This document shows, one piece after another, positions 3,001 through 62,893 of a stretch of 64,000 nt of DNA. Origin of the DNA: Salinimonas iocasae (GTDB lineage: Bacteria > Pseudomonadota > Gammaproteobacteria > Enterobacterales > Alteromonadaceae); NCBI RefSeq assembly GCF_006228385.1, contig NZ_CP039852.1:1876001-1940000 (forward strand), given 5' to 3'. The notes under the pieces are model-generated. The model did no database searches and was not told where the DNA came from. It was given only the letters and a program-made list of their open reading frames with translations. Numbering within the stretch: position 1 is the stretch's first letter; each line of letters begins with the position of its first letter. The position numbers and the translations under genes were made by a program.

Positions 3001-4619
3001 CCAATATCGACCAGTGCCGCGCTGGGCAGATTTTGCTCCATGTAGCTGCGACTAAACGCATTGTTGTACTTTCGTTCAAGTGCCTTGCCGGTCGCCTCGC
3101 CGTGGGCCTGACTGATTGCTGATGCCAGCCTGTCGTTCCAGGTTTTGGTCAGCTCAATAATATTCTGTTCAATTTCTTTCACATCATATTCCGCATTGTT
3201 GTCTTCTACCCGGGCTATGTAATGGGTTCTGGCATAAACAGACTCTGAGAAGAATGTAGTAAATTCGACCTCTTCGGTAGCGCCCAGTGACTCTTTAAGC
3301 AGCGCCTGCGTTTCTTTTCGAAGTTGCGTGTTGTACCGCTCTCTGGGGACAAACACCATACAGGAGAAAAAGCGGCCGAAAATGTCTTTTCGGATAAACA
3401 ACCGGGTAATGCCGCGCTCTTGCATCTGAAAGATGCCCATGACGATTTGTTTTAGCTCTTCCGCAGGAGTTTGCAGTAATTCATCTCTTGGGTACGTTTC
3501 GACGATATTCACAAACGCTTTATAAGCATGAGTGCCTGGCTCGAAACCACTCAGGTCGCAAATCTCCTGGATCTTTTCGCGTAAAATCGGAAGCTGCGTT
3601 ACGCTGGCGTTATAAAATGATGCAGAGTAAAGTCCTAAGAAACGGTGTTCACCTACAACCTGACCGCTCTTGTTGTAAACTTTTATACCCACATAGTCCA
3701 TGTAAGCAGGACGATGTACGCGAGAGCGTGTATTGGTTTTCGTCAGCATCAATGGAGAGTCGCTGAGCGCTTCTTCGCGAGCAGATGCCGGTAGTTTGGA
3801 CAATAGTCTTTCGCGTTCGCTAATTGAGTTTTTCATCAAACCCAGACTACTGTCGTTATCCGGGATCCAGCGATGGTCACCTTCGATAGCTTTCACATTA
3901 TAATAGCGGTAGCCCATCATGGTGAAATTATGGTCAGCCAGCCAGTCGAGAAACTGCTTAATTTTTTTCTCGCCGGTTTTATTGGTTGGCCAGTTAAGCT
4001 TACCAGTATCGTCTTTTACGGCCTGTAACTGATTGGCCATTTCCTGCCAGTCATTCACGGCCAGAGAGACTTCATCCACAACCGAGTGTAATTCTTTAGT
4101 TAGCGCCTCAACTTCCTTACGTGAAGTCTGGCGATCAATTTCGATAAATAATACCGTTTCTTTCTGGGTATCTTTGCCGTTAGCCCCCGGCTCCATGAAC
4201 TCAACTATCTGGTTATCTTTGTCGCGCTTCAGGCCTATCGGGCTATGCAACAACAGATGAGCCGTGATACCCATGCGATTCAGAGACATACGCACAGAAT
4301 CAACAAGAAATGGCATGTCTTTTACCACTATCTCAACGATAGTGTGGCTGGAGTGCCAGCCGTGTTTGGCTATTTCTGGGTTAAAAACTTTTATGTAGGG
4401 TTTATTCTCATCAAAATCATAGAGAATATTCCAAAGACTGAGTGTGGCGCCATAGAGGTCGCTGTCGTTACGGTGCTCCAGATCTTCGTTGGATATATTT
4501 TTATAAAGAAGCTGACCGAACTGTTTCACCAGCGCCTGTTGGTTCGCATCCACCTTTTTATCTATCAGCGAAAAAACGTTATCAAGAAGTACAGAGTGTC
4601 GCTTGGTGGTGACTGTCAT
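1..4619 (-). CDS. gdhB: NAD-specific glutamate dehydrogenase (large class), 3' end cut by window
   Basis: Oxidises L-glutamate to 2-oxoglutarate and ammonia with NAD in the cytoplasm, usually in the catabolic direction. The reading frame runs from an ATG at 4619, preceded by AAGG seven bases away, to the left edge without a stop, about 1540 residues. The family is about 1600 residues, so only the C-terminus is missing. The N-terminal part carries the ACT-like regulatory region; the catalytic core lies roughly between 1000 and 2300 of the window, where VPVGAKGGFV-like, GVGDMAGDVFGNGML and KIVGEGGNLG segments are readable on the minus strand. It is separated from the next cluster by a terminator at 4745-4767 and probably has its own promoter in the 120 bp upstream. 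Family call is very secure; the 180-kDa class typically has allosteric control by amino acids, which is family knowledge. Confidence 0.95.
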   Translation of the reverse strand, partial: MTVTTKRHSVLLDNVFSLIDKKVDANQQALVKQFGQLLYKNISNEDLEHRNDSDLYGATLSLWNILYDFDENKPYIKVFNPEIAKHGWHSSHTIVEIVVKDMPFLVDSVRMSLNRMGITAHLLLHSPIGLKRDKDNQIVEFMEPGANGKDTQKETVLFIEIDRQTSRKEVEALTKELHSVVDEVSLAVNDWQEMANQLQAVKDDTGKLNWPTNKTGEKKIKQFLDWLADHNFTMMGYRYYNVKAIEGDHRWIPDNDSSLGLMKNSISERERLLSKLPASAREEALSDSPLMLTKTNTRSRVHRPAYMDYVGIKVYNKSGQVVGEHRFLGLYSASFYNASVTQLPILREKIQEICDLSGFEPGTHAYKAFVNIVETYPRDELLQTPAEELKQIVMGIFQMQERGITRLFIRKDIFGRFFSCMVFVPRERYNTQLRKETQALLKESLGATEEVEFTTFFSESVYARTHYIARVEDNNAEYDVKEIEQNIIELTKTWNDRLASAISQAHGEATGKALERKYNNAFSRSYMEQNLPSAALVDIGKLESLDDEHKLDMLFYRPQEEGKDSDIVKLKLFHKAEPIHLSDVLPMLENFGLRVIDESPFKITCSEGELNYVMDFTMLHKAGDKLDMEKAQSLFQNAFAKVWAKLLEDDAFNRLVLGAGLTGRKVTILRAYAKYMRQTGSSFSRDYIANTLSNYPQIAKHLVTYFELRYNPNKKRTKKREETVLNEIKSQLDNVGNLDDDRIIRRYLDMMQATLRTNFYQNDEEGNEKPYVSFKMAPEKIPEMPLPLPKFEIFVYSPKVEGVHLRGGKVARGGLRWSDRQEDFRTEILGLVKAQQVKNTVIVPVGAKGGFVCKDLPAGASREVIQAEGQACYRTFIRSLLDITDNIVNGEIVPPEQVVRLDDDDPYLVVAADKGTATFSDIANGISDEYNFWLGDAFASGGSIGYDHKKMGITARGAWESVKRHFREIGIDCQTTEFSCVGIGDMAGDVFGNGMLLSKHTKLISAFNHLHIFFDPEPDVAKSYEERQRLFENPRLSWDDYNKDLISKGGGVFSRADKSIKLTPEMKKCLGTRQMTMTPNELIHNILKMPVDLIWNGGIGTYVKSKKESHAEVGDRANDDLRVNGRDVQAKIVGEGGNLGLTQLGRIEYAANGGRVNTDFIDNVGGVDCSDNEVNIKILLNSLVNNGDLTTKQRNNLLYEMTDDVAQLVLEDCYRQTQSISITERAGNSALKEQLRFIHGLEREGRLNRELEFIPSDDEISDRVAEDKGLTRPELSVLIAYGKMVLKDELNIPAITENPYHEKLLVEAFPSVLRDKFQSQMEQHPLRGEIIATKLTNNMLNDMGLNFVFRMQEETGATVDEIANAYSIVKGIFDIGPLWRRIEQLDTAIDADLQLKMLEEARRIMRRTARWYIRHGNQSLGIQEAIDAYRGTCEDLRKNLEQYLVEDEFAMLTKHTESLTKKGVPDDIAYQVASFSNLFSSLDIAQIDESDDHDTSVIAKLYFQLGNQLELHWFLDQINNQAVSNHWQALARASYREEL

Positions 4620-25910: not shown

Positions 25911-26137
25911 TGAATACCACTAAAAAACAACATGTTGATCCATAACGGCAGACTTGCGTAATGGAATTTGTGAATAAATTTTGTGCTTATTGAAGCGTGA
26001 TTTTCGAAGTGATCGGACCGGCCCAGAAAACGCTTGTGGCCATGATGGTTTTGAAATACATTTGACTTATCAGGGTGTCAAAAAAAATTCATAAAAAATT
26101 GTTTATAAATTGAGCAATTGTGGTCTACTATTAATAG

Positions 26138-26239
26138 GCTGTAAACAATTGCATGTACTTCTCCCTTTGCAAAAGTTAGCGCACGGCTCAGCAATGAGCC
26201 ATTCCCCTAGGCCCAGAACGCAAGTTCTGGGCATTTTTT
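26138..26239 (+). ncRNA. Candidate small RNA with two GCAA-loop hairpins
   Basis: The 433-bp gap 25824-26256 holds no gene, yet on the plus strand it ends in a textbook terminator with no plus-strand gene upstream. Preceding it are a stem-loop TTGCA/TGCAA (26149-26172) exposing a pyrimidine-rich loop (CTTCTCCC), then GGCTCA-GCAA-TGAGCC (26185-26200), then GCCCAGAAC-GCAA-GTTCTGGGC (26211-26232) and six T. A weak TTTATA/TACTAT promoter at 26102-26131 would start a transcript of about 100 nt. The CU-rich loop could pair with Shine-Dalgarno sequences; ProQ is encoded nearby. I cannot match it to a named sRNA, and the 5' end is a guess. Confidence 0.5.
26211..26239 (+). terminator. Rho-independent terminator without an upstream gene
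   Basis: A 9-bp perfect stem (GCCCAGAAC / GTTCTGGGC) with GCAA loop followed by A and six T. It points right; the flanking coding genes both point left, so it must end a non-coding transcript. Confidence 0.85.
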
Positions 26240-26256
26240 ATGGGCGACTAAAATTG

Positions 26257-51806: not shown

Positions 51807-53135
51807 TTGCAAATCAGCGATCTTCCGGTACATCATAAAATCATCTCCCGTCTTCAGGACAAGAGCTTCGACACCCTGACCGAAATTCAGGAGAAGACTA
51901 TATTACCTGCCATGAGCGGCAAAGATATCATCGCTTCTTCGCAAACCGGCTCAGGCAAGACGCTGGCGTTTTTAATTCCTTTGGTAAATCGCCTGCTTAG
52001 CCAAAAGGCGCTGAGCAAAAAAGATCCCCGCGCTATGATACTGGCCCCTACCCGCGAGCTGGCCAAACAGGTTTTTACCGAAGCCAAAAGCCTCACTTCA
52101 CAACTTAATTTACCTTGCGCGTTAATTGTTGGTGGTGAAAACTACAACACACAGACAAAAGTACTGCGTAAAAGTCCGGCCATTGTGGTTGGCACTGCTG
52201 GCCGTATTGCCGATCATCTGGAAGATAAAACCTTCTTTCTGAACGGACTTGAAATGCTGGTATTTGATGAAGCTGACCGCATGCTGGATTTGGGCTTTGC
52301 CCCGCAGCTTAATCTGATTAATCAATATGCCGACCACCGGAAGCGCCAGACTATGCTGTTTTCGGCTACGCTCGATAACCTGGCCCTACAGCATATCAGT
52401 AAAGCATTGCTTAAAGCGCCGGTGCGCATCAATGTGGGACTGGCCACGGCCATTCATCAGGACATCAGCCAGCACATGTATTTTGCTGATAACGTTGAGC
52501 ATAAAAATATGCTGCTGACACAATGTCTGGGCGACACTGATTACAACCAGGCGATTGTATTCACAGCGACACGAGAAGACACAAACCGTATTTGCGATAT
52601 GCTGAATGAAGATAACCTTCACGCTGTAGCGCTTCGTGGTGATCTGCCACAAAATCAGCGCGCGCAAATTATGAGTGAATTCAGCCGGGGCCAGCACAGT
52701 ATTTTGGTCACCACCGATGTGGCATCACGCGGCCTTGATTTGCTTAAAGTCGGCCTGGTTATTAACTTTGATTTGCCTAAGCAGTCAGATGAATATATTC
52801 ACCGCATTGGTCGCACCGGCCGCGCCGGACAAAAAGGCACAGCGATTTCCTTTGTTGGACCACGGGACTGGCAAAGTTTTGAAAGTATTAAAGCCCATGT
52901 CGATTATCCGGTAGCTTGTGAGGCTCATCCTGAATCACCCGCTGAGTTTTCCGGTAAAAAGCCAAAGAAACCTGCTAAACAGAAAACGCATGATAAGCCG
53001 TCCGAAAAAACAGCTGAGAGCAAAAAGCCAGCTGCGCCGGCTAAAAAGCGTGTTAACACCACCGCGGGTAAAGATGTTGGCGATATGCCAATTGTGCGTA
53101 AGAAACGTCAGGCTGACTTTGACGACGATGAGTAA
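51807..53135 (+). CDS. DEAD-box RNA helicase
   Basis: An ATP-dependent RNA helicase of 442 residues. All motifs are readable: Q-motif FDTLTEIQEKTI, I SSQTGSGKT, Ia PTRELAKQ, TAGRI in place of TPGRL, II DEAD, III SAT, IV FTATREDT, V TTDVASRGLD and VI HRIGRTGRAG. The C-terminal ~80 residues are low-complexity and rich in Lys, Pro and Ala, an RNA-binding tail. It starts at TTG with AAGGG upstream; no ATG is well placed. It differs from DeaD and RhlB and is closest to the small RhlE-type group. Which RNA it acts on (ribosome or cold response) is unknown. Last typical chromosomal gene before the cassette region. Confidence 0.92.
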   Translation: MQISDLPVHHKIISRLQDKSFDTLTEIQEKTILPAMSGKDIIASSQTGSGKTLAFLIPLVNRLLSQKALSKKDPRAMILAPTRELAKQVFTEAKSLTSQLNLPCALIVGGENYNTQTKVLRKSPAIVVGTAGRIADHLEDKTFFLNGLEMLVFDEADRMLDLGFAPQLNLINQYADHRKRQTMLFSATLDNLALQHISKALLKAPVRINVGLATAIHQDISQHMYFADNVEHKNMLLTQCLGDTDYNQAIVFTATREDTNRICDMLNEDNLHAVALRGDLPQNQRAQIMSEFSRGQHSILVTTDVASRGLDLLKVGLVINFDLPKQSDEYIHRIGRTGRAGQKGTAISFVGPRDWQSFESIKAHVDYPVACEAHPESPAEFSGKKPKKPAKQKTHDKPSEKTAESKKPAAPAKKRVNTTAGKDVGDMPIVRKKRQADFDDDE

Positions 53136-53517
53136 AATATCGTCGCGTTAGCACTAATGCTTCGACTTACCGTGCGAATACGTATTAATAATTCTTTTGT
53201 TCCCGGACGCTAATTTGGGTTTGGGAACGCCTCCCTTAAAAGCCTCTTCGTTGCTTTGGCACTAGCCTATACTTGAAACTCCTTACACCTGGCTGCCTAC
53301 CCTCCTCTTTTAAACGATAGCTACGCGCTATTTACAAGCAAAAATAATTCGCGTGTGAGGTGGCCGGCCTGACCAGTAAAAGTTCATCCCACTTTGGTGT
53401 ATTTCACGCCAGAAATACACAGTGAAAAAAATTTTGTTTGGCGATACGATAGGTTATGGATAGACACGCTCTGAAAATGGTGTAAATGATTACCCCGTTT
53501 CGGGTGATATTAAATTG
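53136..53517. other. Gene-free spacer ahead of the cassette region
   Basis: 380 bp without a supportable gene. It contains a 6-bp inverted repeat GTTCCC/GGGAAC near 53199-53228 and an ACCC/GGGT hairpin near 53492-53505, and ends in TTGTTAGGTGT, the R'-like boundary of the first cassette. Whether this was once an attI or an attC site cannot be told; no integrase gene is adjacent. Confidence 0.5.
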
Positions 53518-53913
53518 TTAGGTGTAAAATGATAAGCCCAAAGTCGCAATTACTTTTTGAAGAATTAATAGCAGCTCTTAAGGATGCTGAACTTTACGAT
53601 AATGTTCGAGACTTTAATATGTGGGCTTCCACCTTTTCAACTAATGACCAGACAGCCAAGATAGCGGCTGTAAGAAAAATGAAAGATCGATGCCATCCAA
53701 AATTGCTCGGTGATTATAGGCTTAGTGTTAAAGGTAATGGTAGTTATCCAGTAGTAGAATTTTTAGAGCGGTTAATCAATTCCTTTTCAGAGGACCTAAA
53801 TAAGCAATGACACCTAACAAAACGCTGTTGTCACTCCCGTTGGTCGCTGGGACGCAAACACGCAGGGCCGCTTCGCTATTATGCCCTACGCGCCTGCGCC
53901 CCAAAGCTTAGCG
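53518..53913 (+). mobile_element. Integron gene cassette 1
   Basis: Bounded on the left by a GTTAGGT site (cut expected after 53517) and on the right by an attC ending in GTTAGCT. The leading TTAGGTGT is the exact complement of the ACACCTAA that begins its attC at 53810, as expected if the cassette once closed into a circle. One small gene nearly fills it, and its stop runs into the attC. Confidence 0.72.
53529..53810 (+). CDS. Small cassette-borne protein of unknown function
   Basis: A 93-residue soluble protein, ATG 53529, eleven bases after the cassette boundary, without a strong ribosome site. It is helical and contains KDAELYDNVRDFNMWAS and FLERLINSFSEDLNK. I recognise no family. Its TGA stop overlaps the first base of the attC, normal for cassettes. 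Typical orphan cassette protein; possible immune or antitoxin-like role is only a guess. Confidence 0.65.
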   Translation: MISPKSQLLFEELIAALKDAELYDNVRDFNMWASTFSTNDQTAKIAAVRKMKDRCHPKLLGDYRLSVKGNGSYPVVEFLERLINSFSEDLNKQ

Positions 53914-53919
53914 TTAGCT
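53812..53919 (+). repeat. attC recombination site 1
   Basis: 108 bp running from ACCTAAC (R'', 53812-53818) to GTTAGCT (R', 53913-53919). Inner arms AACGCT (53821-53826) and AGCGTT (53910-53915) pair, and the middle is strongly self-complementary (GGGACGC with GCGCCCC; GCAGGGC with GCCCT). This is the classic folded attC layout. The second site at 54409 shares most of the 5' half. Confidence 0.75.
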
Positions 53920-53934
53920 GCCAAAGGAAATTGG

Positions 53935-54414
53935 ATGCTTTGTGATATGAATTTTGTCGATTGGGTTCAAGTGATAACTCAAAGCGTGACTGCGATTACT
54001 GCTGTCATCATGGCTATATTAGCTTATCGAACATATCTCGCGGCACCAGAACAAGAAGCAGAATCAGAACCCGAAAATGCTTTTGATGACACTACTTCCG
54101 AACAATTAGACGAAGTATTTGTTTTCAAAACGTCTAAGCAGAAAACATATTTAAAAGTTACCAAACAGGGGTTGGCTTGTCGTATAGAAGACGAAAGAGA
54201 CGGTAAAGGAGGCCCGCAATGGTTATTATTAAAACAGGAAGTAAAAGCAATTTTAGATTCAATGGCCTTCAGCGTTAATCCTGGCTACAAAGTTAACACA
54301 GGTAAATTTACTATCGGGCCACGTAGAAACTGGCTATATACCAAGTCCTTATTTCCAGAGCCTGACTATTTAAAAAGCGTAATACAGAGGTTGTTAGAAA
54401 ATGCCGGCAGCTAA
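53935..54414 (+). CDS. Cassette-borne membrane-anchored protein
   Basis: 159 residues from ATG 53935, six bases after AGGA. One N-terminal membrane span (about residues 8-30, VIMAILAYRTYLA at the end) then an acidic linker and a C-terminal domain from about 60 with DERDGKGGPQWLL and NWLYTKSLFPEPDYL. No family recognised. Longer upstream frame runs through the attC and is rejected. Its TAA stop lies inside the R'' of attC 2. Confidence 0.65.
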   Translation: MLCDMNFVDWVQVITQSVTAITAVIMAILAYRTYLAAPEQEAESEPENAFDDTTSEQLDEVFVFKTSKQKTYLKVTKQGLACRIEDERDGKGGPQWLLLKQEVKAILDSMAFSVNPGYKVNTGKFTIGPRRNWLYTKSLFPEPDYLKSVIQRLLENAGS

Positions 54415-54504
54415 CAAAACGCTATTGTCACTCACTTCGTTCGCTGGGACGCATACACGGGGCCGCTTCGCGATTGTAGCGCCATGATTAAAAACTTTGC
54501 TGCC
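54409..54504 (+). repeat. attC site 2 (3' arm degraded)
   Basis: Begins AGCTAACAAAACGCT, matching attC 1, and shares CGCTGGGACGCA and GGGCCGCTTCGC. The right end reads ACTTTGCTGCC where GTTAGCTGCC would be expected, so the GTTRRRY core is damaged. The left arm GGCAGCTAAC is the exact complement of the GTTAGCTGCC at the left end of its own cassette (53913-53922). Confidence 0.65.
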
Positions 54505-54520
54505 AGTAATTGGAGGTCCT

Positions 54521-54847
54521 GTGGATGAGAAATTTATAGGGATTATTATCATCATCTTGTTTGGTGCCCTACCCTGTATCGTTCTCGGCTATCTCATTGC
54601 TGTTAAACAGATGCATGGATTAATTGCAGGCTGGAACGAATCAAAGGTCTCGAACCCTGTTGCTTTCGGAAAATGGGTAGGCTTTTCGGTGCTGGTTGTC
54701 GGCCTATGTATCGCAGGTACTGGACTAGTCTGGTACCTTGGCTTAATCAATGAAAATCAGATGACATTCCTACTCGCTATCGCCTCAGTTATCCCCATTC
54801 CATGTTTAATTGTTGCTATTTTCAAGTATAAAAAACGTGGCAGCTAA
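54521..54847 (+). CDS. DUF3784-like small membrane protein in cassette
   Basis: 108 residues from GTG 54521, four bases after GGAGG. Three hydrophobic spans are visible, at about 4-24, 48-70 and 78-97, with GLIAGWNESK between the first two, as in the DUF3784 family found in Firmicutes. The family's function is unknown. Stop TAA at 54845-54847 lies in the AGCTAAC of the next attC-like arm, so this is again a cassette gene. Confidence 0.65.
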   Translation: MDEKFIGIIIIILFGALPCIVLGYLIAVKQMHGLIAGWNESKVSNPVAFGKWVGFSVLVVGLCIAGTGLVWYLGLINENQMTFLLAIASVIPIPCLIVAIFKYKKRGS

Positions 54848-55010
54848 CAATGCGTTAAACCGATAGCTACTATGTGGCAATTACTAGTCGCCAGCCAAGT
54901 GTCATGCTTATGACGTCTGATACGCTTAAGATGTTATCTAAAAATGAATGTGCGAACCATTTTGTACCAGATGTTTTAAGGGTCAGTACTCGGCCGTATA
55001 AAATTTAGGC
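54839..55010 (+). repeat. attC-like remnant 3
   Basis: Starts with GGCAGCTAACAATGCGTT, a good 5' attC half, but no matching 3' half follows closely. TTAGGC occurs at 55005-55010 directly before the next gene and could be the altered core of its cassette. Read as a decayed site. Confidence 0.4.
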
Positions 55011-55024
55011 TTCAGGAGTTAAGT

Positions 55025-55774
55025 TTGAAATTTTTGCAGATAATCAGCGCTATACTTTTGCTAGTTTCTAATTACGGACATGCAGAGGTTATTGTCGATA
55101 AAACAAGAGGTCGAAAGATTCCCATCGAAATTTCATATCCCACCCAAAAATTTCAATGCACCGATAGCAATAAGTGCCCAGTCAGTTTTATCAGCGCAGG
55201 ATATGGTGTTTCTCACAACAAATATGTCTTTTTAACACGATTACTCAATGAACTTGGTTACATGACAGTCTCGATTGCTCATGAATTACCCCAGGATCCA
55301 CCGCTTTCTACAAAAGGAAACTTGTTCAAAAGTAGAAGCGAAAACTGGCTTCGTGGTGCCAGTACATTAGACTTTTTGCAAAGGCAGTTATCATCCCAAT
55401 ATTCAAACTATGATTTTGACTCTCTTGTTTTAGTAGGTCACTCGAATGGTGGGGATATATCAGCCTGGCTTGCTAACGAAGGCAAGTCTTATGTAAAAAC
55501 TATCATTACTTTAGACAATAGACGGGTTCCATTACCGCGAAATGATAATATTCAGGTCTTATCTATCCGGGGAAGCGACTTCCCCGCAGATTCAGGGGTT
55601 TTGCCTACTTCTCAAAAGGAGAATACTCACTTAATGTGTATCGTTGAAATTCCTAACTCAAGACACAATGACATGTCGGATTACGGCCCTGAATGGTTAA
55701 AAACTAAGATAACTAGAATCATAGATGTTTTTCTATCCGAGGGACGTTGTGCTTCGCTCAAAGAAGCAGCCTGA
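55025..55774 (+). CDS. Secreted alpha/beta hydrolase
   Basis: 249-residue exported hydrolase of the alpha/beta fold. The TTG at 55025 is six bases past AGGAG. A signal peptide covers about 1-20 (LLLVSNYGHA). The nucleophile elbow is VGHSNGGD, a GxSxG with Ser in SNG, and the His of the triad is in NSRHNDM near residue 218. Substrate unknown; a small esterase or lipase is plausible. The TGA stop is part of GCCTGAC, which also ends the lipoprotein gene at 56769, suggesting an attC arm shared by two cassettes. Confidence 0.78.
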   Translation: MKFLQIISAILLLVSNYGHAEVIVDKTRGRKIPIEISYPTQKFQCTDSNKCPVSFISAGYGVSHNKYVFLTRLLNELGYMTVSIAHELPQDPPLSTKGNLFKSRSENWLRGASTLDFLQRQLSSQYSNYDFDSLVLVGHSNGGDISAWLANEGKSYVKTIITLDNRRVPLPRNDNIQVLSIRGSDFPADSGVLPTSQKENTHLMCIVEIPNSRHNDMSDYGPEWLKTKITRIIDVFLSEGRCASLKEAA

Positions 55775-55819
55775 CTTCGCATTATAATCGTTCGCAACCT
55801 CGCAGGTAAACTAACACAG

Positions 55820-55850
55820 TGGCTATAGTGCTTCGAACGGACTATAGCCA
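55820..55850. repeat. 10-bp perfect hairpin between cassette genes
   Basis: TGGCTATAGT and ACTATAGCCA flank an 11-base loop containing TTCGAA. It lies 46 bp after the hydrolase stop without a T run. Could be an attC remnant or a weak terminator. Confidence 0.45.
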
Positions 55851-55894
55851 TATTTGATCCCCTTATGCCGGCGCTATACACTGAATGGATTCAA

Positions 55895-56239
55895 ATGAAG
55901 ATTTTTCTGGTAGTCATTGCTACTCTCTATCTAGCCGCTTGCGACTATGCCTCAGAGAACAGGCGCATAATCAGCAAACAGGAACTTGTTCCAGTTAAAT
56001 TCGATTTAACTGGGAAAAAGCTTGAAGCAGTCAAAGCAACTATTGCCAATTTGGAAGAAAGAGAAATCTCCCCAAAAAACTTTTACGTTGAAGTTGAAAA
56101 ATTCGAAGAGACTGTAGTGGTATTGCTTATAGACAAAGCTTTCAGCAATACGGTTCATGTTGGTGGCGGTGGCGAAACACAGGAGTGCACTTATGACCTG
56201 GTTAAAAAAGAAATTAAGGAATGCTTATACTATCAATAA
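55895..56239 (+). CDS. Small lipoprotein of unknown function
   Basis: 114 residues from ATG 55895. The N-terminus MKIFLVVIATLYLAAC is a lipoprotein signal with a clear lipobox (LAAC, Cys16). The mature part is acidic, with LEAVKATIANLEEREI and a Cys near the end. No family recognised. A frame opening earlier at 55865 breaks the signal peptide. It ends ahead of an attC-like AATAATGCGCC segment. Confidence 0.65.
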   Translation: MKIFLVVIATLYLAACDYASENRRIISKQELVPVKFDLTGKKLEAVKATIANLEEREISPKNFYVEVEKFEETVVVLLIDKAFSNTVHVGGGGETQECTYDLVKKEIKECLYYQ

Positions 56240-56346
56240 TGCGCCATTGTCGTTCGCTGACAATCTTCAGAGCGCGTGCATATGGGTGGCGTCGTTGTTT
56301 CTCTTCGTAGGCCTGCGCCCGTTCGAACTGTAAGCCTTCCAAGCCT

Positions 56347-56769
56347 ATGAATAAATGTCTTCTCTTTTTGATATTAACTCTATTGCAAATTTCCGGTTGT
56401 GATAATTCCAGACAATATTTCGATGAGCGTGAAGGCGAAGATATCAGCACCAGGATATCTCCTAACGAGAATTACAAAGCATTATTGAGAAAGGTAGATA
56501 TAAGTGGATCCGTCATGGTTTCTCAGCCTTACCAGGTTATCGTTGAAGATAAAGCTGGGAACAAAAAGGTGATACTTTTAGCCGACAAAACATCGGGACT
56601 GACTATTACCTGGCTAGAGCCCACAATCATAAGTATTTGCTATGGTAAAGAAACCAGAATCAGAGAGTTTAGAAACTCATATGGCTTTTACTACGAGAAT
56701 ACTCCTTATGTAGACGGTGAGGTTATCTTAAACAGAAAAGAACGTTTTGAGGAGTGCGGTGGAGCCTGA
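56347..56769 (+). CDS. Small lipoprotein of unknown function
   Basis: 140 residues. The lipobox ISGC near residue 18 follows a hydrophobic signal (LLFLILTLLQISGC). The rest, with DISTRISPNENYKALLRK and VIVEDKAGNKKVILLADK, looks like a small beta-rich domain. No known family. Its TGA is inside GCCTGAC, as in the hydrolase gene upstream, consistent with cassette borders. Confidence 0.62.
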   Translation: MNKCLLFLILTLLQISGCDNSRQYFDEREGEDISTRISPNENYKALLRKVDISGSVMVSQPYQVIVEDKAGNKKVILLADKTSGLTITWLEPTIISICYGKETRIREFRNSYGFYYENTPYVDGEVILNRKERFEECGGA

Positions 56770-56888: not shown

Positions 56889-57356
56889 ATGGAACCAAAT
56901 TACTCAGAGTACTCGATTGCAGAGCTGGAAGATGCGCTGGCCAATATAGATAAGGACGAATTCCCTGAGCGGGCAGCACGCATAGAAGGTGAACTGATTT
57001 CGCGGCAAGCGTCACAGAACAGCAGTCTGAATACAGCTAACAAAGAATTTGAACCCAATGAGCAGTTCTTTAAATGCCCAACCTGCGAAAAGAAAATCGG
57101 CTTTCTCTCTAAAACTGCGAACAAGTGGGGAAAGGTAAAAGCCTGCCCTCATTGTAACTCACTTTTTGAACAAACGTTAAGCCTGAAAGTATTTGCTATT
57201 GCAATTATACCTGCGCTTATTATTCACCTATTTATATTGCGTCCACTTGTCGTTGCTTTCGGTTTACATGGAGCGATAAGTACTGGCATTTTATCCGGCA
57301 CTCTTTTAATTCTTTCAATGCGTTTCAAAAAAGTCCGGAATAAAACTTTCACATAG
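56889..57356 (+). CDS. Small zinc-ribbon membrane protein
   Basis: 155 residues from ATG 56889 (an earlier frame from 56754 overlaps the previous gene). Residues about 60-85 form a zinc ribbon with CPTC and CPHC, and two membrane spans follow near 102-120 and 125-148. The N-terminal acidic helix is YSEYSIAELEDALANI. Unknown family. Its position in the small-gene series suggests a cassette, but no sharp attC is seen on either side. Confidence 0.6.
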   Translation: MEPNYSEYSIAELEDALANIDKDEFPERAARIEGELISRQASQNSSLNTANKEFEPNEQFFKCPTCEKKIGFLSKTANKWGKVKACPHCNSLFEQTLSLKVFAIAIIPALIIHLFILRPLVVAFGLHGAISTGILSGTLLILSMRFKKVRNKTFT

Positions 57357-57495: not shown

Positions 57496-57858
57496 ATGAA
57501 AAAGTTAATCGTACTTTTCTCACTCGTACTTATTCTTGCTACTGTCAATTTATCGGGGTTCGGATTCAGCTTCCTTCAGGTTTACATTGTTGCGCCGCTC
57601 CTGCTGAGTATTTTTGTGGCTTTGATTAAGACAAAAAAGCCAACGCTCAATTTCATCGTGTCATGGGCGGGCGTGCTGTCAGGTCTGCTGGCGCTGGTGC
57701 TTTATTATTCGGTAAATACCTATACGGGCACTGATGGTCAGGCCGGCCTGATTTATGCCGTTGTGCCATTTTACCAGCTGGCTTTCATGCTTTTAGTGGC
57801 TGCTATTGCCTTGCTTATCTGGCATTTTACAAAACGCTTTAAAAGAACAAAGACATAG
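57496..57858 (+). CDS. Small polytopic membrane protein
   Basis: 120 residues with a strong ribosome site (AAGGAAGGAG) before ATG 57496. Four hydrophobic spans are suggested, at about 3-20, 25-43, 54-72 and 84-108, with a basic C-terminus (KRFKRTKT). No family recognised. The 240 bp after it up to the esterase has no convincing gene. Confidence 0.65.
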   Translation: MKKLIVLFSLVLILATVNLSGFGFSFLQVYIVAPLLLSIFVALIKTKKPTLNFIVSWAGVLSGLLALVLYYSVNTYTGTDGQAGLIYAVVPFYQLAFMLLVAAIALLIWHFTKRFKRTKT

Positions 57859-59065: not shown

Positions 59066-59112
59066 ATCGCAGGGACGACCCTGTGATTAATTAACTGACG
59101 GGGACGACCCCA
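59066..59112 (+). promoter_or_regulatory. Guanidine-II (mini-ykkC) riboswitch
   Basis: Two hairpins with identical ACGA loops: CAGGG-ACGA-CCCTG (59070-59083) and GGGG-ACGA-CCCC (59100-59111), 16 bases apart, just before an SMR gene. This pair of ACGR loops in GC stems is the guanidine-II consensus. Guanidinium binding joins the two loops and frees the ribosome site of the downstream gene (class knowledge). The AGGTG at 59118-59122 lies 6 bases past the second hairpin. Confidence 0.93.
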
Positions 59113-59127
59113 TTTATAGGTGTCGTT

Positions 59128-59448
59128 ATGAATTGGTTAATACTTATCTTTGCAGGTTTTCTCGAGGTTGTCTGGGCAGTAGGCCTGAAATACACCCACG
59201 GATTCACCAAGCCTCTCCCTTCTGTTGTCACTGTCGTAGCTATGGCTGCAAGTTTTTACTGCCTCAGCCTGGCAATGCGCTCTCTGCCTTTAAGTATCGC
59301 CTACACAGTATGGGTTGGTATCGGCATGGTGGGAGCAGTTCTTTTCGGAATAATTTTTCTTAAAGAGCCGGTAAATCTGTTTAAAGTTGTCAGCCTGCTT
59401 TTAATCATAAGCGGTATTCTTGGCCTCAAATTATCAAGTGGTGCCTAA
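59128..59448 (+). CDS. gdx: Guanidinium exporter (SMR family, Gdx/SugE)
   Basis: A 106-residue four-span small multidrug resistance protein. The first span has the essential Glu13 (GFLEVVWAVGLKYTHGF), and the remaining sequence follows the SugE/Gdx pattern (WVGIGMVGAVLFG). SMR proteins of this subtype exchange guanidinium for protons as an antiparallel dimer. The riboswitch directly upstream settles the substrate, since it is the guanidine-sensing class. Stands alone on the plus strand. Very secure combination. Confidence 0.94.
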   Translation: MNWLILIFAGFLEVVWAVGLKYTHGFTKPLPSVVTVVAMAASFYCLSLAMRSLPLSIAYTVWVGIGMVGAVLFGIIFLKEPVNLFKVVSLLLIISGILGLKLSSGA

Positions 59449-62362: not shown

Positions 62363-62563
62363 CACCTTTATAAAGTAACGTGCATTAACGCCACATGGTT
62401 AGCGAAATGTGTGGCATACACAGGCAAACTCAATCTTGAGCCCGAGGTCACCAGAACAGTATTCTATTTACCGACATTGGTCCTGCGTTATTTTCATTTA
62501 AGCGGTTTAGACCCGGCTACAATGGTGATAGTACTGAACCAGAACACTTCTAAAGGGGGCAAT

Positions 62564-62893
62564 ATGGCGTGGCTTTACTTAGCAATAGCAATATTTTCTG
62601 AGGTAGTGGGTACCCTGGCCCTTAAAATTTCAGATGGCTTCGTACACCCGGCTGCCAGTACCGTTTGCGTAATTGCCTATGGTATTGCGTTTTACTGCCT
62701 GTCGTTAGTCGTCAAAACCGTTCCGGTAGGTATTGCTTATGCGATATGGGCGGGTGCCGGCATCGTACTTATCACACTATTATCTGCACTATGGTTTAAG
62801 CAGATCCCTGATCTTCCAGCCATATTAGGTATGGGTTTGATAATTGCGGGCGTGCTTACTATCAATGTGTTTTCTGATTCAGTGTCACATTAA
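62564..62893 (+). CDS. EmrE-type small multidrug resistance transporter
   Basis: 109 residues from ATG 62564, after AGGGGG. The first span is AWLYLAIAIFSEVVGTLALK with the essential Glu14, followed by GIAFYCLSLVVKTVPVGIAYAIWAGAGIV, the QAC-type SMR signature. These export quaternary ammonium compounds and toxic cations. It is a second SMR gene 3.1 kb from gdx but of the other subtype, since it lacks the Gdx signature and has no riboswitch. The longer upstream frame is not supported. Confidence 0.92.
   Translation: MAWLYLAIAIFSEVVGTLALKISDGFVHPAASTVCVIAYGIAFYCLSLVVKTVPVGIAYAIWAGAGIVLITLLSALWFKQIPDLPAILGMGLIIAGVLTINVFSDSVSH

Follow-up and report, generated by a model that had tools for sequence, protein, structure and literature searches.

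A second copy of an integron attI site heads an integrase-less cassette array in Salinimonas iocasae

A 64,000-nt stretch of the Salinimonas iocasae chromosome (hereafter the window; G000:C1:1876001–1940000, where G000 denotes this two-contig, 4.16-Mb genome in a genus set of 59 genomes) carries an integrase-less array of integron cassettes that extends from position 53518 to ~57.9 kb. The array is headed by a second copy of the attI site (53375–53520, + strand) found beside an intact integron integrase gene, intI, elsewhere in the same genome (G000:C1:3344167–3345105). With a probability of about two in three, we read the locus as an orphan attI platform, i.e. an intI-free copy of the landing site together with the region upstream of it, which then captured cassettes and would be fed in trans. 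The original prediction, made from the letters of the window, had described the array as a cluster of attC sites lacking an integrase (CALIN). As a label this holds, since at least two attC sites are present (three matches, two of them at E ≤ 1.1e-4 with our own model) and no intI adjoins; as a full account it fell short, having missed the full attI copy at the array head. This copy, the intact intI elsewhere and a like arrangement in Salinimonas profundi (G030) argue that the array is not simply a set of attC sites that lost their integrase.

The attI copy, aligned with four other copies of the same type (type A, see below), is 85% identical over 146 bp to the attI beside the intact intI (E 9.6e-40), from which it is separated by 1.4 Mb. 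It is the sole other copy of that attI in the genome at E < 1, the next best match reaching E 1.13. Differences between the two are unevenly spread: none falls in the 42 crossover-proximal bases (53479–53520, +), which include the dyad ATTACCCCGTTTCGGGTGAT, vs. 22 in the remaining 103 columns (P 2.6e-4 under an even spread). Homology between the two loci stops at attI leftward; rightward it runs to the predicted crossover between G53517 and T53518, past which their first cassettes are no longer alike. Of the parts of a complete integron, the window has an attI at the array head and lacks an intI in cis. The attI dyad did not stand out as a hairpin (z −1.3 and −1.7), and a search of viral contigs for the attI motif returned 0 matches. 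As a promoter scan of 53100–53900 found two promoter-like sites, vs. 1.6 expected by chance, we make no claim on a cassette promoter (Pc).

Against TIGR02249 (cut-off 265), the corresponding integrase, IntI-A, reaches 443 bits; it aligns over residues 1–317 with Vibrio cholerae IntI4 (2a3v, E 1e-111). Its gene adjoins fadA and heads an array with nine detected attC sites, so that an intact integrase matching the window attI is present in the genome. A second intI (G000:C1:1457764–1458468; locus L014) is interrupted by two in-frame stop codons, with an attI and one attC remaining behind it; a close relative of this broken gene has an open frame in G019. In the genome-wide search with TIGR02249 (E ≤ 0.001), the window itself had no match, in agreement with the original prediction, which had suggested looking for intI elsewhere in the genome. 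Nor did tblastn with 33 integrases (E ≤ 0.01) reveal intI remnants at the window (40001–64000) or at the other orphan attI loci tested, while both positive controls of this search were matched by all 33.

To the right of attI, the cassette nature of the array could be established with an attC covariance model built from 25 attC sites outside the window (from the same genome and two related genomes), whose E-values are rough. Scanning the 64-kb window gave three matches at E ≤ 1, all on the + strand and all in the array. The attC of cassette 1 (53812–53919) is intact (match 53811–53921, 90.6 bits, E 2.8e-20); that of cassette 2 (54409–54504; match 54408–54514, 30.8 bits, E 1.1e-4) retains its left half but has a decayed right half with a mutated R′ core; and the third, at 55768–55881, is decayed (21.7 bits, E 0.027; E 8.6e-4 in an unfiltered scan of 7.5 kb). 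Both sites named in the original prediction, 53812–53919 and 54409–54504, are thus recognised by the model, and the falling scores bear out the rightward decay that the prediction had noted. The two share a 5′ half (87% over 52 nt) at a spacing of 597 bp. They are not ordinary scattered repeats, as the 23 attC matches in the genome sit in five places, each behind an attI.

The cassette ends are exact. Cassette 1 (53518–53913) begins with TTAGGTGT (53518–53525), the exact reverse complement of ACACCTAA (53810–53817), and the left end of cassette 2 (53914–54494) lies in GTTAGCTGCC (53913–53922), the exact reverse complement of its R″ arm GGCAGCTAAC (54406–54415). Open reading frames (ORFs) likewise end at these arms, with stops at 54414 and 54847 within GGCAGCTAAC and the ORF to 53810 overlapping its arm by one base, and two further ORFs, to 55774 and 56769, stop in GCCTGAC. 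All array genes taken as real lie on the + strand, the ORF list also holding shorter frames on the minus strand. Moreover, for five of the nine array proteins tested (those of 93, 107, 124, 155 and 120 aa), other arrays encode relatives at E ≤ 1e-6. Model matches, complementary ends and recurring proteins together uphold the cassette array that had been proposed.

The same locus in the sister species S. profundi allows a direct comparison. Between a helicase gene (97% identical at the amino acid level) and a small multidrug resistance (SMR) gene (90%), this species carries an orphan attI, 97% identical to that of the window, and no intI. The cassettes differ between these two species, both of which lack an integrase there: apart from one 496-nt stretch at 78% identity and one attC, the two arrays have diverged in content. 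By parsimony, such turnover at an orphan attI followed a shared ancestor that was already without intI. In the simplest history, the orphan attI would predate the species split, the cassettes having come and gone later without an integrase in cis. Downstream of the helicase gene, none of 28 other genomes (30 loci covered, out of 48 genomes with a match) showed an SMR gene or an intI within 1.5 kb, and a clean empty site was therefore not obtained. At the fadA locus (L012 vs. L076), FadA itself is 99.5% identical between the two species, yet S. profundi has a different integrase there, IntI-B, with 64% identity to IntI-A; integrase and attI thus seem to have been exchanged while the position beside fadA stayed fixed.

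Three types of attI, termed A, B and C, were found across the genomes. Type A lies beside intI in S. iocasae and in the draft genome of Salinimonas chungwhensis (G008), and occurs as an orphan in the window, in S. profundi and on G008 contig C9, where a weaker match heads 13 attC sites. Type B lies beside intI in S. profundi, with orphans in S. iocasae (G000:302640–302795, heading ten attC at E ≤ 0.01) and S. profundi (contig C6). Both orphan B copies are located downstream of a tRNA-Phe sequence and have 508 nt in common, up to the left end of the cassettes; their arrays share no cassette, the matches between them being 44–121 nt long and thus of attC size. Inspection by eye of the S. iocasae copy (L114, ~4290–4340) showed it to adjoin an apparent 3′ part of tRNA-Phe, called by ARAGORN not at all, in a manner reminiscent of an old integrative-element junction. 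Types A and B, otherwise unlike, both contain CCACTTTGGGGTA-like motifs and their inverse (TACCCCAAAGTGG), which are possible binding sites of the integrase or a regulator. Type C, which adjoins intI in S. iocasae (the broken gene) and G019, is the most widespread, with matches at E ≤ 1e-6 in 22 of the 59 genomes. Setting aside the right-part fragments L136 and L137, and leaving out places such as G042 C52 and C119, type C attI without intI was counted at 15 examined loci in 14 genomes (11 full-length copies and 4 with the left part only). Short right-end fragments of type C (42–48 nt) were also seen in or heading arrays (G042:C84, G029:C27, G002:C23, G006 and G008:C1:394–436). In S. iocasae itself, two of the five places with attC matches lie behind intI (9 and 1 matches) and three do not (10, 2 and 1), and all three detected intI-less arrays are headed by an attI copy, of types B, A and C.

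Cassettes are common to intI-bearing and orphan arrays. A comparison of 93 cassettes, some of them partial, across 16 arrays gave 17 pairs that matched between arrays: 15 among S. chungwhensis draft contigs, one in S. iocasae and one in S. profundi. Cassette 2 of the S. iocasae orphan B array equals cassette 2 of the main array (90.5% over 389 of 391 nt); the orphan C and orphan B arrays of S. profundi share a cassette (93% over 303 nt); and in S. chungwhensis, cassette 2 of the intI-headed array corresponds to cassette 3 of the orphan A array (99.2% over 252 nt, where the contig ends). Cassette 1 of the window together with its attC matches, starting from the crossover, the cassette that comes first after an orphan attI of type C in G015 (93.5% over 400 nt; L133, 1708–2103). 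In S. chungwhensis, we further noticed recurrent cassettes of ~308 nt without an evident ORF that begin with GTTAGGCGTCATTTACTTACAGC (L042 10945–11250 and 13088–13390; L041 10396; L145; L146).

The limits of the type C units bear on how orphan copies may arise. Orphans of this type have ~65 nt in common to the left of the part shared by all copies, and both intI-bearing copies lack these ~65 nt. The common left end begins at GTACGTATTGCTGCCG and is sharp at all 15 loci, as expected of a mobile unit: the first 20 nt show an ungapped identity of 0.83, as against 0.41 at −20 to −1 and only 0.28 at −60 to −21, and gapped identity left of the end (0.56–0.58) equals that of a random control (0.57). 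Column information starts at −14 and fits the integron core (T-G-W-N-R-G-K-C) loosely. Compared with a GTTRRRY core, C at −7 is present in 15 of 15 loci, G at −9 in 14, G at −13 in 10 and T at −12 in only 8. An attC follows the orphan on the same strand in seven of nine cases, and also at L119 and L121, with L129 and L132 lacking one. In G013, a genome without any intI, the one full-length type C orphan has lost the GTT core that is kept in 12 of 12 other full-length copies examined, a hint at most, as it comes from one genome. A search for the empty site of the S. profundi type C unit showed G041 to keep 180 nt of the left flank, diverging ~23 nt short of the shared GTACG end; a right flank was not found there. 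Overall, the pattern suggests dispersal of an integrase-free unit for type C. For type A, with just three different loci known, the left end may instead simply reflect the limit of functional constraint.

How cassettes would reach the window attI can be framed in terms of the standard integron reaction, in which the hairpin of a cassette's attC recombines with double-stranded attI and attC × attC recombination excises cassettes. IntI-A, made at fadA (3.344 Mb), would supply the orphan attI in trans by pairing it with the attC hairpin of a free cassette, which would be inserted at G53517/T53518, and excision by attC × attC would be the reverse. Since new cassettes would always enter beside attI, older ones would decay to the right. 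The attI region might also drive transcription of the first cassettes.

Several points weigh against this reading. Recombination at the proposed platform, and expression from it, are what we infer from the sequence. The array itself is not uniformly convincing: the first attC has a single-strand fold modestly better than those of shuffled sequences (z −1.85), the second a worse one (z +1.39), whereas an attC from the main array reached z −6.34; our model found no attC at the GCCTGAC end at 56769; and Rfam, at its gathering threshold, returned nothing at the array. Much of the array is old, given that decay has affected the second and third window attC and that S. profundi retains one old cassette. 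All 17 matching cassette pairs lie within one genome and none between genomes, and the 15 pairs among S. chungwhensis contigs may represent a single array. As for cognate integrases, S. iocasae carries orphan B and C sites but no intact IntI-B or IntI-C, and S. profundi now has IntI-B, 64% identical to IntI-A, which may or may not recognise attI-A. The rule that intI-less arrays begin with attI is likewise qualified, as 150 of 772 first-look attC candidates were scored in S. iocasae, "all three" therefore meaning all detected, and in S. profundi attI heads four of six such arrays, with no attI head seen at those of C6:201 kb and C1:24 kb (attC ≤ 54 bits). Whole-locus homologous recombination with other strains could change cassettes, too. 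Finally, integrase-less cassette regions in Alteromonas are reported to acquire cassettes more rarely than the region with the integrase (PMC4119200).

The usual proposal for CALINs is that they are degraded integrons (PMC9024848); on this account the window once contained a complete integron whose intI was deleted, attI and cassettes being relics. The account would accommodate two decayed attC sites out of three and the broken intI elsewhere in the genome, but it sits poorly with the unchanged attI core at the window, with the lack of any intI remnant at this or the other orphan loci tested, and with S. profundi, whose cassettes differ though both species lack intI there. In addition, the ~65 nt that type C orphans have in common are absent beside intI, so these orphans, at least, are not separate deletions. 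We consider such degradation improbable as the origin of the window array.

Whole-locus exchange is common in such bacteria, and the attI copy could be the by-product of a passive event: attI and array might have been duplicated or imported as a block, through segmental duplication or an exchange spanning the helicase and SMR genes, with later replacement of the whole interval between strains. A block copy does not account for homology with the main locus whose left end coincides with attI and whose right end is the crossover, nor for a match with G015 that begins at the crossover, behind a different type of attI, and we judge it less probable still than degradation. Cassettes placed by IntI at a random genomic attG site, without a real attI, are contradicted for the window locus, since an attG insertion carries no attI sequence, whereas here the left half of the junction, over the 146 bp up to the crossover, copies the attI of the genome and is not ordinary genomic DNA. 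Although insertion at attG has been described for IntI1 (PMC12901181 and PMC12444791), we give this explanation hardly any weight. On balance, we favour the orphan platform, with presumed insertion at its attI by IntI-A in trans.

More speculatively, attI in Alteromonas and Salinimonas might be a dispersing element. In this tentative scheme, which we think rather doubtful, integrase-free units bounded by a degenerate core on the left and the crossover on the right would be spread by integron integrases over chromosomes and plasmid-like replicons, seeding platforms filled in trans, so that many CALINs would be satellite integrons; the unit would resemble a cassette whose recombination site is attI. 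The prevailing description has one integrase beside one landing site, with integrase-less arrays being mostly products of decay. Should landing sites be copied and then supplied in trans, a single integrase could build several arrays in different transcriptional neighbourhoods, CALIN counts would hide working platforms, and arrays usually dismissed as broken integrons may be still working outposts. The origin of CALINs also becomes testable genome by genome, by asking whether each begins with a copy of the attI of that genome, as do three of three detected in S. iocasae.

The individual features of the array, all on the + strand, are as follows. Cassette 1 contains an ORF (53529–53810) for a 93-aa protein of no known family. 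The ORF of cassette 2 runs to 54414, its start being uncertain (53932 was used), and had no relative at E ≤ 1e-6 among the loci compared. Cassette 3 (54496–54848; ORF to 54847) encodes a protein that matches Pfam DUF3784 (28.9 bits, cut-off 28.1) and is 55% identical to that of the first cassette in the intI-bearing array of S. profundi (L076 10134–10454). Its R″ arm is followed directly by GTTA, forming a truncated attC remnant (54839–54862; 9.3 bits, E 1.4, not significant alone). Next come an alpha/beta-hydrolase-like gene (55025–55774), below Pfam cut-offs and ending in GCCTGAC; a cassette-derived gene (55865–56239, 124 aa) with 58% amino acid identity to a cassette between two attC in S. 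chungwhensis (C25; L146 2349–1984); and a gene for 140 aa (56347–56769) that ends in GCCTGAC. The cassette-derived gene for a zinc-ribbon-like protein of 155 aa (56889–57356) has a 74% identical counterpart in the S. profundi array at the same locus and is 79% identical, again in amino acids, to a gene directly behind the attC beside intI in G051 (L044 269–3). The right limit of recognisable cassette genes is set by a 120-aa gene (57496–57858), 68% identical at the amino acid level to one in an attC array of S. chungwhensis (C2; L115 1097–738). A putative esterase gene (PF00756; 58083–58958), with distant matches only in the loci compared, is a candidate cassette gene. PADLOC and NCBIfam yielded nothing convincing for the array genes.

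The chromosomal neighbours outside the array are, on the left, the DEAD-box RNA helicase gene (51807–53135, +), whose product is the one 97% identical at the same place in S. profundi, and, on the right, a Guanidine-II riboswitch (59067–59111) with its SugE-type SMR gene (59128–59448; together 59067–59448, +), the SMR gene being that conserved at 90%. A second SMR gene lies 3 kb beyond the riboswitch-linked one (62411–62893). Elsewhere in the window, at 26107–26243, Rfam matches to SdsR/RyeB (+) and SraC/RyeA (−) overlap, a pair of small RNAs.

Among known systems, the array resembles CALINs, for which three origins have been proposed (PMC8618304), in having attC cassettes without a nearby intI (PMC9024848, PMC8618304), and departs from them in its full attI copy and a cognate integrase intact elsewhere in the genome. 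According to PMC9024848, attI is neither searched for nor detected outside class 1, so that attI heads of CALINs would be overlooked. In the open-licence literature, going mainly by titles and abstracts, we found nothing on Salinimonas integrons and no description of dispersed or orphan attI copies heading such arrays; one paper mentions attI-like sites in the context of off-target insertion. With the sedentary chromosomal integron at fadA in its own genome, the window array has attI, crossover, attC type and cassette pool in common, but not intI. The integrase-less cassette regions of Alteromonas (A. australica, PMC4119200) are alike in that only one of several attC arrays per genome has intI, and all are reported as expressed; unlike our data, the relevant section of that paper mentions neither an attI at the remaining regions nor dispersal of attI copies. 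In class 1 and 2 integrons, delta-attI-type cassettes also carry attI-derived sequence away from intI, functional for IntI1 (PMC12901181), and find a parallel in the 42–48-nt right-end fragments of type C near full copies. However, there attI pieces replace the attC of cassettes within one array, while here whole attI regions head separate arrays. In the trans mobilisation of CALIN cassettes by a functional IntI, the integrase likewise acts in trans on integrase-less arrays (PMC12444791); there, cassettes are mobilised, whereas here the landing site itself has been duplicated.

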